A stretch of 49,886 nucleotides of DNA from positions 1 to 49,886 of the forward strand of contig SUUI01000014.1 of assembly GCA_015062605.1 (NCBI GenBank). The letters are read 5' to 3'. Below are positions 33,635 to 40,132 of this stretch, piece by piece. The notes below the pieces were generated by a model. That model was not told where the DNA came from. It did not search any database and saw only the letters and a program-made list of their open reading frames with translations. Both the position numbers and the translations under genes were made by a program. Source of the DNA: Eggerthellaceae bacterium. Lineage in GTDB: Bacteria; Actinomycetota; Coriobacteriia; Coriobacteriales; Eggerthellaceae. Each line of letters opens with the position of its first letter. Position 1 is the first letter of the stretch.

Positions 33635-34714
33635 CTAGAAGAGTGTGCCTTTAAAGCAGACCATTGGAGAATTGGAATCATAATTCCAACTGTGATGGGC
33701 GCCGCCGCGGCAGAAGCGTACGTGCTCGCATGCCCGGCAATCCTCGTTTAATTCCGAAAGGTCATGCCGGAAGAACTCGAAGCGGTTGTCCCATACATCA
33801 CGGAGACGGTCTGTGCGGATGTTGCCTTGGATGACTTCGGGACGTCGCTCGATGTCAAGGCACGCGCCGATATCCCCGTTTGCCATGATAGATGCGGTGT
33901 ACACGCCTGCGTTGCAGAGCCAATACCACTCGCGCACCTCCGCCTCATATTCGAGCCCGAGGTAATGGGTGCAGCCGTACTCCAACGGATAGCCCGCTTG
34001 ACGCTTTTCGCGGATGAATTCGAAGAGGCGTATGTAATCCTTAGGCGTGAGCATGAGCTCGGGGCGCGTAAGCGCACGGCCGATCGGCTCTAAGTTGATG
34101 ACGCGCCATGAATCGATATCGATACCGTCCATGATATCGAACAACGCATCGAGCTCGCAGATGTTTCCGTGATTAATAACGGTGGTCACCTGTATTGCAT
34201 TGAAGGTGCCTACATCGATGAGGTTTTGGATGCCGGCCATGGCGCGGTCGTATCCGCCTTTGAGCCCACGCAGTTCGTCATGCGTATCGCGCAAGCCATC
34301 GATGGAGACCGAAATCGTGCCCATGCCCACTTCAGAAAGGCGATGTGCCACTTCTGGAGTGATGAGTGTAGCATTGCTCGTCATGCCCCACCTAAAGCCC
34401 TGGTCGTGCGCATATCCCATGATGTCGAAGAAGTCGCGGTGAAGCAGCGGCTCGCCGCCTGTGACGCACAGCTGCATACGCGAGATGTCGAAATCTGCTT
34501 TCACCTGGTCGATGATAGAGAACCATTCCTCGCGGGTAAGGTCGTCGGGGTTTTTAAGGCCCGGTGCGCAGGAGCTTCCGCAGTGAAAGCATCGTTCGTT
34601 GCATTGCAGTGTGAGCTCGAAGAACAATTTGCGCAGTTCAGGGGCGCGGTACAGCGTTCGCGTGTAATCTGAGAGCGCGTTCAGATGCTCGGTTTTGATG
34701 TCGCGGAGATTCAT
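33635..34714 (-). CDS. radical SAM/SPASM peptide- or protein-modifying enzyme
   Basis: A 359-residue enzyme. Cys38, Cys42 and Cys45 (CNERCFHC) bind the SAM-cleaving 4Fe-4S cluster; CVTGGEPLLH and SVSIDG are radical SAM strands. The C-terminal SPASM region has Cys at about 268 (CNAGVYT), then DIGACLDIE, EDCRACEHVRFCRGGAHH and a final Cys at 353, enough for one or two auxiliary clusters. SPASM enzymes usually modify ribosomal peptides or enzyme partners. Its ATG overlaps the stop of the VYGPP-repeat lipoprotein (ATGA), a tight coupling that marks that protein as the likely substrate. Confidence 0.92.
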   Translation of the reverse strand: MNLRDIKTEHLNALSDYTRTLYRAPELRKLFFELTLQCNERCFHCGSSCAPGLKNPDDLTREEWFSIIDQVKADFDISRMQLCVTGGEPLLHRDFFDIMGYAHDQGFRWGMTSNATLITPEVAHRLSEVGMGTISVSIDGLRDTHDELRGLKGGYDRAMAGIQNLIDVGTFNAIQVTTVINHGNICELDALFDIMDGIDIDSWRVINLEPIGRALTRPELMLTPKDYIRLFEFIREKRQAGYPLEYGCTHYLGLEYEAEVREWYWLCNAGVYTASIMANGDIGACLDIERRPEVIQGNIRTDRLRDVWDNRFEFFRHDLSELNEDCRACEHVRFCRGGAHHSWNYDSNSPMVCFKGTLF

Positions 34715-35238
34715 CTACGCCCCGAAGGAGGACCGTACACCGGGGGCGGTGTGTTCTGCGAGGGATTGAACGATGCGCGTCCGCCCGACTGGAACCATTC
34801 GGGCGGTCCGTAGACGCACACGGGTTCATTGTCGCTCGGTGTGAATGCGATGCCGGTTTTCTGATCAACCTGCCCGAAATCTTCGGGAGGACCGTAGACA
34901 CCCTCAATCAGGTTCTTATCCACCTCGAAATCCTCGGGTGGCCCATAGACGTCCTCAAGCTCGTTTTCGGATGGGTCGTACTCCGGGTCGGTTTGCTCGA
35001 CAGGTTCGAGCCCTAGATCCTCGGGAGGTCCGTAAACGGTTTCGATCTCATTATCGGGTGGATTGTAATCGTCGGGCGGTCCGTAGACATCCTCGATCTC
35101 GTTGTTCTTCGGATCGAGCATGTTCGGCGGCCCATAGACAGCATCGGGGTTGTTCTTGGATGGCTTGAAACAGCCCGTAAGCCCGAGCGCCGCAAGTATG
35201 CCGGCGGCAGTGAAGCCTCTACGCGAAAGCGGTTTCAT
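34711..35238 (-). CDS. Tat-exported lipoprotein with seven VYGPP repeats; probable substrate of the radical SAM enzyme
   Basis: A 175-residue protein. The signal MKPLSRRGFTAAG combines a twin-arginine motif with a lipobox (LTGC, Cys23). The mature chain is acidic, Pro/Asn-rich and low in hydrophobics. VYGPP occurs at residues 34, 51, 68, 97, 114, 142 and 167, spaced 17, 17, 29, 17, 28 and 25, often within D/E-VYGPPE-D-F/L and followed by NEIE-like linkers. Codons within the motif differ between copies (GTCTATGGG, GTTTACGGA, GTGTACGGT), so the peptide is what is kept. GGAGG precedes the ATG. I know no named family with certainty. Confidence 0.88.
   Translation of the reverse strand: MKPLSRRGFTAAGILAALGLTGCFKPSKNNPDAVYGPPNMLDPKNNEIEDVYGPPDDYNPPDNEIETVYGPPEDLGLEPVEQTDPEYDPSENELEDVYGPPEDFEVDKNLIEGVYGPPEDFGQVDQKTGIAFTPSDNEPVCVYGPPEWFQSGGRASFNPSQNTPPPVYGPPSGRR
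34726..35139 (-). repeat. VYGPP-coding repeat region
   Basis: Seven DNA segments coding VYGPP, the first three and copies 4-5 at an exact 51-base step. Third-base variation between copies argues against recent tandem duplication. Confidence 0.85.
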
Positions 35239-35350: not shown

Positions 35351-35371
35351 ATTAGAAAAAGGATGGTGCAT

Positions 35372-35833
35372 ATGGGTTCCAACATCTCGATATACTTAAG
35401 CGATGCGGCGCTTGCGAAGCTTGATGGGATTGTTGCGCGCAACGCTGCGAAGAATCGAGCCGATGGGCTTAGCGGTCGCAAAGTCGCGAGTCGTTCGAGC
35501 ATTCTTGAGCAGATGATCATGGAAAGCTTTGAAGGGGATGGCGTGCTCGATCGGAAGACCATCGAGTATTTTACGGTATCGCTTGCAAAGAAGTACGGGG
35601 CCAAAAAGGTATCGCTGTTCGGATCGTATGCCCGAAACGAGGCTACAGCTGATTCCGATATCGACATCCTCTTGGATAAGGGCGAAATTCGCGGAATGGG
35701 CGTGCTTGATTTCCAGGAAGAGCTGGCTTCCAAACTTGGGAAAAAGGTCGATGTTGTCACTACGGTCGGTGCTAGTGAGCGCTTTTTGAAAAAGATAGAG
35801 CGTGACGAGGTGGTGCTTTATGAGGCAAGCTGA
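35372..35833 (+). CDS. MNT-type nucleotidyltransferase antitoxin with N-terminal RHH-like region
   Basis: A 153-residue protein. The C-terminal half is a minimal nucleotidyltransferase with GSYARNEATADSDIDILLD, the GS-x10-DxD motif that AMPylates HEPN partners. The first 55 residues (SNISIYLSDAALAKLD, then SRSSILEQMI) look like a ribbon-helix-helix DNA-binding domain, which MntA-type antitoxins usually lack. ATG at 35372 follows AAAAAGGA; an ATG nine bases earlier sits too close to that site. Its end overlaps the HEPN gene by 14 bases. Confidence 0.87.
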   Translation: MGSNISIYLSDAALAKLDGIVARNAAKNRADGLSGRKVASRSSILEQMIMESFEGDGVLDRKTIEYFTVSLAKKYGAKKVSLFGSYARNEATADSDIDILLDKGEIRGMGVLDFQEELASKLGKKVDVVTTVGASERFLKKIERDEVVLYEAS

Positions 35834-36185
35834 GCGCGATATCGACCAGCTCTTTGTCATCAGGCGTTATTGCGATCGTCTTGACAAGGCACTCAACCGT
35901 TTCGGTGCAACGTACGACGCGTTCGTCGACGATACCGTTTTCCAAGATAGCTGCTCTTTGTGCATCATCCAGATCGGGGAGGCGGTGAACCGGCTTTCCG
36001 AGAGATTCGTGTTGTCGCATCCCGAGATAGATTGGAGCCGTATTTACGGCATGCGCTGCCACTTGGTTCACGGATACGAGATGTTCGATTCCGAAATCGT
36101 ATGGGATGCCATCGAGCATTGCATCCCTCCACTCCGCGCGTTCTGCGAGCAACAAACCGCTTCCGAAAACGAGGCCTTTCTCTAA
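35820..36185 (+). CDS. HEPN toxin (DUF86/HepT family)
   Basis: A 121-residue helical protein that starts inside the antitoxin gene. The RNase motif R-x4-6-H appears as GMRCHLVHGYE in the C-terminal half, with the conserved IGEAVNRLSE before it. HepT toxins cleave RNA, tRNA in studied cases, and are silenced by AMP addition at a Tyr near the motif; HGYE provides it. With the preceding gene it forms a type VII-like pair. Confidence 0.88.
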   Translation: MRQAERDIDQLFVIRRYCDRLDKALNRFGATYDAFVDDTVFQDSCSLCIIQIGEAVNRLSERFVLSHPEIDWSRIYGMRCHLVHGYEMFDSEIVWDAIEHCIPPLRAFCEQQTASENEAFL

Positions 36186-38910: not shown

Positions 38911-40074
38911 TTACAGACCCAGCGTGTTCTGCTTGTTGTACTTGGTGAGCAGGCCGTTGTAGAAGTCCTTGTTCTCACCGCGTTCGATCAAAGTATCGAG
39001 GGCGACCTTGTAGATGGAGGAGTCGAGGTGCTTCTTGATGAGCTCCTTGTCCTTGTTCTCGATGTCACCGTTGTCGATCATGTCGCCGTAGAAGTCGACG
39101 ACGGCATCCGTCTGCGGATCCATCTCGAATTTCATGGCGGCTACGTAGCCGTCCTTGCCGTAGGTGATCTTCTCGACGTAATCGGCATCTTGGCCGGAGT
39201 ACTCTTGGATCATCTGGAGCGTTGCAGTGTGGTCGTTCTCGATGACCTGCAGAGCGCGCAGGTTGGCAATCTCGAACTTGATCAGCGCGGAGCGCTTTTC
39301 CTCGAAGGCCTTGCGGTTCGTGCTCTGACGGCAGCAAGGGAATTCCTTGCCGATGAGCTCGTTGGGGCGGAATGCAACGGCGCACTTGCCGGTCTTGACG
39401 GCATTGACGCCATAGCCGCTGTTCACGAAGCACATATCGATCTCGCCCTTCTCGACGGCAGCGACTTCTGCCGCAGAGCTCTCAAGCAGGATGAACTCGA
39501 CGTCATTGCCTTCAGCGAGCGGACCGATTTTCAGGCCTTGCTTACGCAGCCAGCTTTTAGTGATCATATGGCCGGTCTCCATGCGGAAGCAGCCGATGGT
39601 CTTGCCCTTGAAATCTTCGGCTTTCTTGTATTTGTCCTTGTTCTCGATGAGCGTGATGCACTCGGAACCATCGGTTACCGTGCCGCCGAATATGACGAGG
39701 TCATCGCCCTGACCGATATAGGAACAGGTGGGAATCGACCCGAAGGGGAGGACGTCGGCGGAACCGTTGGAGAGCGCCGGCATGGCCTCGGGGAAGCCGC
39801 CGGACACGGTTTGCGTATGAATGCTGAGGCCTTCTTCCTCGTAGAAGCCTTTCTTGATGGCAACGATGATGCAGGCGATTTTCGCATCTTTGCCGAGCAG
39901 GACGAGGTTCAAGTCCTCGGTTTCGGTCTTGATGGTGTTGTCGAACTTCTTCGTGTCGGCACCCTTGCCGCTTGAAGAGCAACCGGCAAGCGTACCGAAG
40001 CTCGCCAACGCTCCAGCGGCGAGGGCGGTGCTACCGGCAATCCTTAAGAATTGCCTACGGGAAATATCAGCCAT
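38911..40074 (-). CDS. ABC substrate-binding lipoprotein (SsuA/TauA/THI5-like), Tat signal
   Basis: A 387-residue lipoprotein with SRRQFLRIAG (twin-arginine) and lipobox LAGC. The mature domain resembles nitrate/sulfonate/taurine binding proteins: KKGFYEEEGLS, SNGSADVLPFG, DFKGKTIGCF. It carries vicinal Cys in the lobe (EFPCCRQST) that may contact a thiophilic ligand such as an arsenic or sulfur compound (inference). ATG at 40074 follows AAAGGA. It heads the operon binding protein, ATPase, permease, DUF5714. Confidence 0.92.
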   Translation of the reverse strand: MADISRRQFLRIAGSTALAAGALASFGTLAGCSSSGKGADTKKFDNTIKTETEDLNLVLLGKDAKIACIIVAIKKGFYEEEGLSIHTQTVSGGFPEAMPALSNGSADVLPFGSIPTCSYIGQGDDLVIFGGTVTDGSECITLIENKDKYKKAEDFKGKTIGCFRMETGHMITKSWLRKQGLKIGPLAEGNDVEFILLESSAAEVAAVEKGEIDMCFVNSGYGVNAVKTGKCAVAFRPNELIGKEFPCCRQSTNRKAFEEKRSALIKFEIANLRALQVIENDHTATLQMIQEYSGQDADYVEKITYGKDGYVAAMKFEMDPQTDAVVDFYGDMIDNGDIENKDKELIKKHLDSSIYKVALDTLIERGENKDFYNGLLTKYNKQNTLGL

Positions 40075-40132
40075 GAAACATCCTTTCACTCAATTAAATA
40101 CGACCCATTGAGGTATATTGGCTAAGGTCTAG

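Follow-up and report, generated by a model that had tools for sequence, protein, structure and literature searches.

The window analysed here, a stretch of 49,886 nucleotides from a gut bacterium of the Eggerthellaceae, contains the gene of a radical SAM/SPASM enzyme (P0001) next to the gene of a lipoprotein (P0002) in which the pentapeptide VYGPP occurs seven times. The question raised by this locus is whether the enzyme modifies the repeats of its neighbour and, if so, which chemistry could be involved.

Organization of the locus

Both genes were recognized as real, and the ATGA overlap between the end of the P0002 gene and the start of the P0001 gene was confirmed in the sequence. The twin-arginine motif (SRRGF) and the lipobox (LTGC) that had been proposed for the lipoprotein in an earlier, sequence-only reading of the window were confirmed as well, and the seven VYGPP copies stand exactly at the residues given there (Table 1). 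P0002, whose N-terminal sequence is MKPLSRRGFTAAGILAALGLTGC, has both the signal peptide and the lipobox Cys (LTGC at residues 20-23) by which a lipoprotein is recognized, and TatC is encoded in the source genome. The chain is acidic and is predicted to be disordered (mean pLDDT 54.6). Of its two Cys, one belongs to the lipobox; these are too few thioether donors for a sactipeptide or ranthipeptide maturase, and this assignment of the enzyme was rejected.

Table 1. Coordinates of the two genes and of their sequence features in the window
Feature	Position	Strand	Basis
Radical SAM/SPASM enzyme P0001, 359 aa	33635-34714	minus	Pfam Radical_SAM (2.1e-20) and SPASM (1.2e-7)
P0001 CxxxCxxC radical SAM cluster motif (C38, C42, C45)	34580-34603	minus	homologue alignment
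P0001 SPASM domain, C267-C353	33656-33916	minus	Pfam match and clade alignment
P0001 C248 codon	33971-33973	minus	clade alignment
VYGPP-repeat lipoprotein P0002, 175 aa, probable substrate, predicted disordered	34711-35238	minus	sequence and structure model
P0002 signal peptide, SRRGF twin-arginine motif and LTGC lipobox (Cys23)	35170-35238	minus	sequence
VYGPP copy 1, residue 34	35125-35139	minus	sequence
VYGPP copy 2, residue 51	35074-35088	minus	sequence
VYGPP copy 3, residue 68	35023-35037	minus	sequence
VYGPP copy 4, residue 97	34936-34950	minus	sequence
VYGPP copy 5, residue 114	34885-34899	minus	sequence
VYGPP copy 6, residue 142	34801-34815	minus	sequence
VYGPP copy 7, residue 167	34726-34740	minus	sequence

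Linkage of the enzyme and the YGPP lipoprotein

An enzyme-based scan of genome contigs yielded 59 loci in Coriobacteriia and Clostridia, 57 of which included upstream DNA; the contig titles are mostly host-associated (e.g. rumen, jejunum, faeces). At every one of these 57 loci the enzyme is adjoined by at least one YGPP protein, in which the motif occurs one to seven times; several loci carry two such proteins in tandem, and members with a single motif in varied surroundings were also found. No conserved third gene was detected around the 57 loci. Within the family the enzyme is present in 9 of 138 genomes, and all nine have the repeat protein. A scan of viral contigs returned distant radical SAM proteins only and no pair of such an enzyme with a YGPP lipoprotein.

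The linkage was also examined from the opposite direction, independently of the enzyme, with a DNA pattern of two YGPP motifs 25-55 bases apart in 395 genomes of the order. The pattern was matched in 28 genomes, two of which were left out (L115, with no repeat ORF, and L117, with the repeat gene at the contig edge), and the enzyme adjoins the repeat gene in all 26 testable cases. Among 391 evenly drawn Clostridia it stands beside five of five real YGPP lipoproteins; the draw had been centred on one of these five genomes, and another was known beforehand. The matches in L115 and L139 were dismissed as chance occurrences of the DNA pattern; a zinc-ribbon protein with MQYGPPAQPDAGQPTQ repeats (L145, genome G416), which has no radical SAM gene in its locus, is probably an unrelated repeat.

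The lipoprotein without its enzyme, named beforehand as the outcome that would speak against the pairing, was looked for and not found, and the expected constant adjacency of the SPASM gene was borne out in both search directions. The enzyme and the YGPP lipoprotein are thus an obligate module. Their coupling as enzyme and substrate, suggested earlier from the layout of the genes, is strongly supported and we regard it as very probable.

Conservation of the VYGPP motif

Among 199 distinct motif sites in related loci YG is conserved in 100%, P(+2) in 99%, P(+3) in 97%, V(-1) in 93% and N(-6) in 81%; P(-9) and F/Y(-11) are also conserved, and VYGPPEWF and VYGPPEDF are among the forms in which the motif occurs here. 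The codons of VYGPP vary from copy to copy within P0002. When P0002 was compared with its homologue in a congener (G001), all 35 motif codons kept their amino acid, with 25 synonymous and no nonsynonymous changes against 40 synonymous and 45 nonsynonymous changes outside the motif (Fisher p = 2.3e-7). Selection on the peptide motif, as had been claimed from the codon variation, is supported in this way, and the conservation of the 199 sites together with the codon comparison ruled out a repeat arisen by chance. Furthermore, Leu, Ala, Gly, Trp or Ile can replace Val at position -1, which rules out Val-specific cyclopropanation as a general rule; with Leu, Ala or Gly standing there at some sites, a reaction at the Val methyl groups is not general. 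It is probably the tyrosine of each VYGPP copy that is modified by the adjacent enzyme.

Family and phylogenetic position of the enzyme

The best NCBIfam model for P0001 is TIGR04133 (rSAM_w_lipo), which is matched over the full length with 263.7 bits, under the cut-off of 425, and is also matched by all 33 aligned homologues. P0001 reached 126.6 bits with TIGR04103 (cut-off 725), of which it is not a member, and 122 and 151 bits with the MftC and AhbD models, respectively; the models of the crosslinking enzymes PapB, DynA and WgkB score lower on the enzymes of this group. P0002 matches no family, and gave no match at E up to 1 to TIGR04134 (lipo_with_rSAM; cut-off 39.8 bits). In the AlphaFold2 model of P0001 (pLDDT 90.7) one N-terminal helix precedes the barrel and there is no RRE domain. 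Among solved structures, SkfB, SuiB and anSMEcpe have the most similar folds, by which the chemistries are not told apart.

The CxxxCxxC motif is invariant in the 33 homologues. The last Cys of the Cx2Cx5Cx3C motif, kept in PlpX-type, GDL and MftC enzymes, is missing from the clade formed by the YGPP and TIGR04133 enzymes, where an invariant C248 just upstream of the SPASM domain is found instead. Judged from the alignment, one ligand of an auxiliary cluster seems to have been swapped for another; since the last Cys is lost and C248 gained, the auxiliary cluster would differ from that of the PlpX-type enzymes. As to which cluster is touched by the swap, we rely on an assumption drawn from anSMEcpe.

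In a tree of 41 rows, in which PlpX itself was not included, the outgroups were thinly sampled and some outgroup branches were long, the YGPP enzymes and TIGR04133 form one clade (100/99). Its sister (99/94) contains the Nostoc nif11-class maturase 3, which is a member of TIGR04103 (853 bits), the GDL maturases and an Agathobacter enzyme, and the union of the two clades is itself recovered with 100/99. Constrained sisterhood to MftC (p-AU 0.033) and to TIGR04053 (p-AU 0.007) was disfavoured in both cases. Among the SPASM families sampled P0001 is therefore nearest, as sister group, to TIGR04103, which we take to be the equivalent of the PlpX class and IPR026482.

The substrates of these relatives share a common feature. 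The precursor beside the Nostoc enzyme has the C-terminus ALYGLPPELF, which resembles VYGPPEWF and VYGPPEDF, and the GDL precursors have a looser motif. Plasmid records of Parabacteroides and Treponema contain true members of TIGR04133, with 608 and 451 bits, respectively, both adjoined by a TIGR04134 lipoprotein; the arrangement recurs in a Phocaeicola record, where the lipoprotein gene lies downstream. At or near the lipobox of these lipoproteins CEYGSP, CEYGTP or SCYGMP is found, and YGxP just after the lipobox was seen in real TIGR04134 members. The profile itself contains YGTPYA, as a synthetic probe dropped from 67.9 to 50.9 bits when the six residues were replaced by Ala. A motif of the type X-Y-G-(x)-P thus appears to be common to the substrates of both sister clades, the sample being small (one Nostoc precursor and published tags).

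In the Treponema lipoprotein (L123:2059-2448) Tyr-Gly directly follows the apparent lipobox Cys (TSCYGMP), and in this layout the X of XYG would therefore be the lipidated Cys. On an Agathobacter rectalis plasmid (L125:2228-3670) a TIGR04103-like radical SAM gene is preceded by a small ORF ending in VMYGTGVRM and followed by an MFS transporter gene, which is possibly an unannotated splicease system.

Proposed mechanism

PlpX is a SPASM enzyme of class IPR026482 which, together with the RRE protein PlpY, cuts tyramine out of Xaa-Tyr-Gly so that an alpha-keto amide remains (PMC11002830). It acts on XYG, its natural sites being MYG and LYG and its engineered tags including LYGLPI and GYGLPI (PMC10533398), and precursors with several splice sites are possible (PMC10373908). 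P0002 offers seven VYG sites to such an enzyme. We infer that the chemistry of the locus is a splicease-type excision of tyramine at Val-Tyr-Gly, to which we give a somewhat better than even chance. The best explanation of the whole, a self-contained two-gene module in which tyramine would be excised at each Val-Tyr-Gly of a surface lipoprotein, stands in our estimate just on the favourable side of even.

According to this proposal the acidic, disordered lipoprotein would be synthesised in the cytoplasm, where the enzyme might recognise each [FY]-D-P-x-x-N-E-x-x-D-V-Y-G-P-P unit and modify its Tyr. Excision would cost C8H9NO, about 135.07 Da per site and about 945 Da for seven, and would turn the Val of each site into an alpha-keto-beta-amino residue ahead of Gly-Pro-Pro. 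The chain would be exported afterwards, by Tat in Coriobacteriia and by a different pathway in Clostridia, and would be held in the membrane's outer leaflet by its anchor. Since spliceotides are reported to be protease inhibitors (PMC10373908; PMC11117315), the surface ketoamides might, speculatively, act as multivalent protease-inhibiting warheads. Three observations speak against splicing: PlpX works with PlpY, whereas no RRE protein is conserved at the YGPP loci, in line with the missing third gene, though one may be encoded elsewhere in the genome; the SPASM Cys set of the clade is altered; and the preference for Val at -1 is stricter than the XYG rule demands.

Alternative explanations

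The main rival of tyramine excision is an intramolecular link in each motif, e.g. a cyclophane or ether from Tyr to the nearby Pro (+2) or Asn (-6), by which each site would become 2 Da lighter. Crosslinks are the product of many SPASM peptide maturases, and the conserved N(-6), P(-9) and F/Y(-11) as well as the Cys set of the auxiliary cluster, unlike that of PlpX-type enzymes, could be read in this sense; however, the sister clade is the PlpX/GDL group and not the known crosslinking families, whose PapB, DynA and WgkB models score lower, and the motif also occurs singly in varied surroundings. We consider crosslinking unlikely.

Another modification of Tyr is conceivable, for instance loss of its side chain (about -106 Da), epimerisation (mass unchanged), hydroxylation or a mycofactocin-like oxidation of Val-Tyr. 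The scores with the MftC and AhbD models are good and the MftA precursor ends in VY, but MftC decarboxylates a C-terminal Tyr (PMC9062424; PMC8326336) while the Tyr of VYGPP is internal, and the grouping with MftC was disfavoured in the tree; these modifications are distinctly unlikely in our view. The repeats might also stay unmodified and serve for docking, as proline-rich motifs often bind proteins, with the lipoprotein being the partner of an enzyme that acts on another molecule. This appears quite improbable, since no other gene is conserved at the loci and YG recurs beside related enzymes in unrelated scaffolds (lipoproteins, the C-terminally anchored proteins of L114 and L116, and Nif11 precursors). 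Chance adjacency of a radical SAM gene and a low-complexity lipoprotein is practically negligible, as it was refuted by the linkage found in both directions (57/57 forward, 26/26 and 5/5 motif-first).

Export and anchoring

Most homologues of P0002 have a lipobox Cys as P0002 does. The coriobacterial YGPP lipoproteins mostly carry a twin-arginine lipoprotein signal, and TatC was found in all nine coriobacterial carrier genomes tested; the clostridial ones have plain, non-Tat lipoprotein signals, and TatC was absent from all 15 clostridial carrier genomes tested. The suggestion that Tat export would suit a chain crosslinked or bulky before leaving the cytoplasm was consequently not borne out by the clostridial carriers. 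The anchor type varies, while the motif and the enzyme are constant; because the anchors vary and the clostridial carriers lack TatC, the export route is uninformative on the modification.

In L114 (G367) and L116 (G383) the YGPP motif is near the N-terminus of a protein with a C-terminal membrane helix and without signal peptide or lipobox; here the radical SAM gene is upstream of the YGPP gene, not downstream, and the enzymes belong to a divergent branch of the clade. The YGPP protein of L085 (G025), encoded next to the usual enzyme, has a signal-like N-terminus in which a lipobox Cys is not evident, and its C-terminus is basic. In the window itself a substrate-binding-like lipoprotein (38911-40089, minus strand) has the twin-arginine signal SRRQF and the lipobox LAGC. 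This second probable Tat lipoprotein suggests that Tat use is common among the lipoproteins of the source genome, and it also undercuts Tat as a hint of a bulky modification.

Relation to known systems

The nearest described arrangement is the TIGR04133/TIGR04134 pair of NCBIfam, found in Bacteroidota and Treponema, to which the clade of P0001 is sister. In both cases a radical SAM/SPASM gene adjoins a lipoprotein gene, the enzymes share one clade and YGxP occurs in the lipoprotein; P0001, however, scores far lower than real members, and TIGR04134 lipoproteins carry the motif once, ahead of a folded-looking domain, whereas in P0002 its copies are spread over a chain predicted to be disordered. 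The PlpX/PlpY spliceases (TIGR04103 class) and the GDL maturases (TIGR03913) share with the YGPP module the sister position and the X-Y-G-(x)-P substrate motif. They differ from it in that the YGPP module lacks an RRE partner and has a changed set of SPASM cysteines; neither a protease nor a transporter is conserved with it, and its probable substrate is a membrane-anchored lipoprotein without Nif11 or NHLP leader. In the TvgB pathway to poly-cyclopropylglycine (PMC9062424) one radical SAM enzyme likewise acts repeatedly on a short Val-containing motif, but the repeats are TVGG and genes for an oxidase, a peptidase and a transporter are added. MftC of mycofactocin is a SPASM enzyme acting on Val-Tyr as well; its Tyr is C-terminal, it is encoded with the chaperone MftB and it lies on a separate tree branch.

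Text searches found no paper on VYGPP, on YGPP with radical SAM, or on TIGR04133 or TIGR04134. The splicease survey of Scott et al. from 2022, the title of which names both peptides and proteins, may include part of the findings already. The sequence-only reading had held a multi-site modified surface lipoprotein of this family to be undescribed; the principle of the pairing is already known from NCBIfam, and the chemistry, if right, from PlpX. What is new is a surface-anchored substrate with repeats and many sites, together with a clade of RRE-free enzymes that falls outside the family cut-offs and the link of TIGR04133/TIGR04134 with spliceases, although part of this may be published.

If the proposed excision is true, a chemistry would be assigned to a pairing that NCBIfam names by association only, beta-amino-acid protein splicing would be extended to permanently membrane-anchored proteins of gut bacteria, and the labelling of proteins at many sites could draw on a repeat-driven system with a single enzyme and no RRE. 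The wider proposal is that a splicease working without an RRE cuts the backbone of surface lipoproteins of gut and rumen bacteria at as many as seven sites and so turns them into multivalent membrane-anchored alpha-ketoamide proteins. The lipoproteins of the TIGR04133/TIGR04134 pairs in Bacteroidota and Treponema would then undergo this chemistry too; the chances of this wider proposal appear evenly balanced. Should the chemistry be other than splicing, the module still offers a short recognition motif that hardly varies, and it makes a clear phylogenetic prediction.

Neighbouring genes

Divergent from the P0002 gene, an MntA/HepT-like type VII toxin-antitoxin pair is located at 35363-36185 on the plus strand of the window, the MntA-like protein of which has about 60 extra N-terminal residues with a weak ribbon-helix-helix match.
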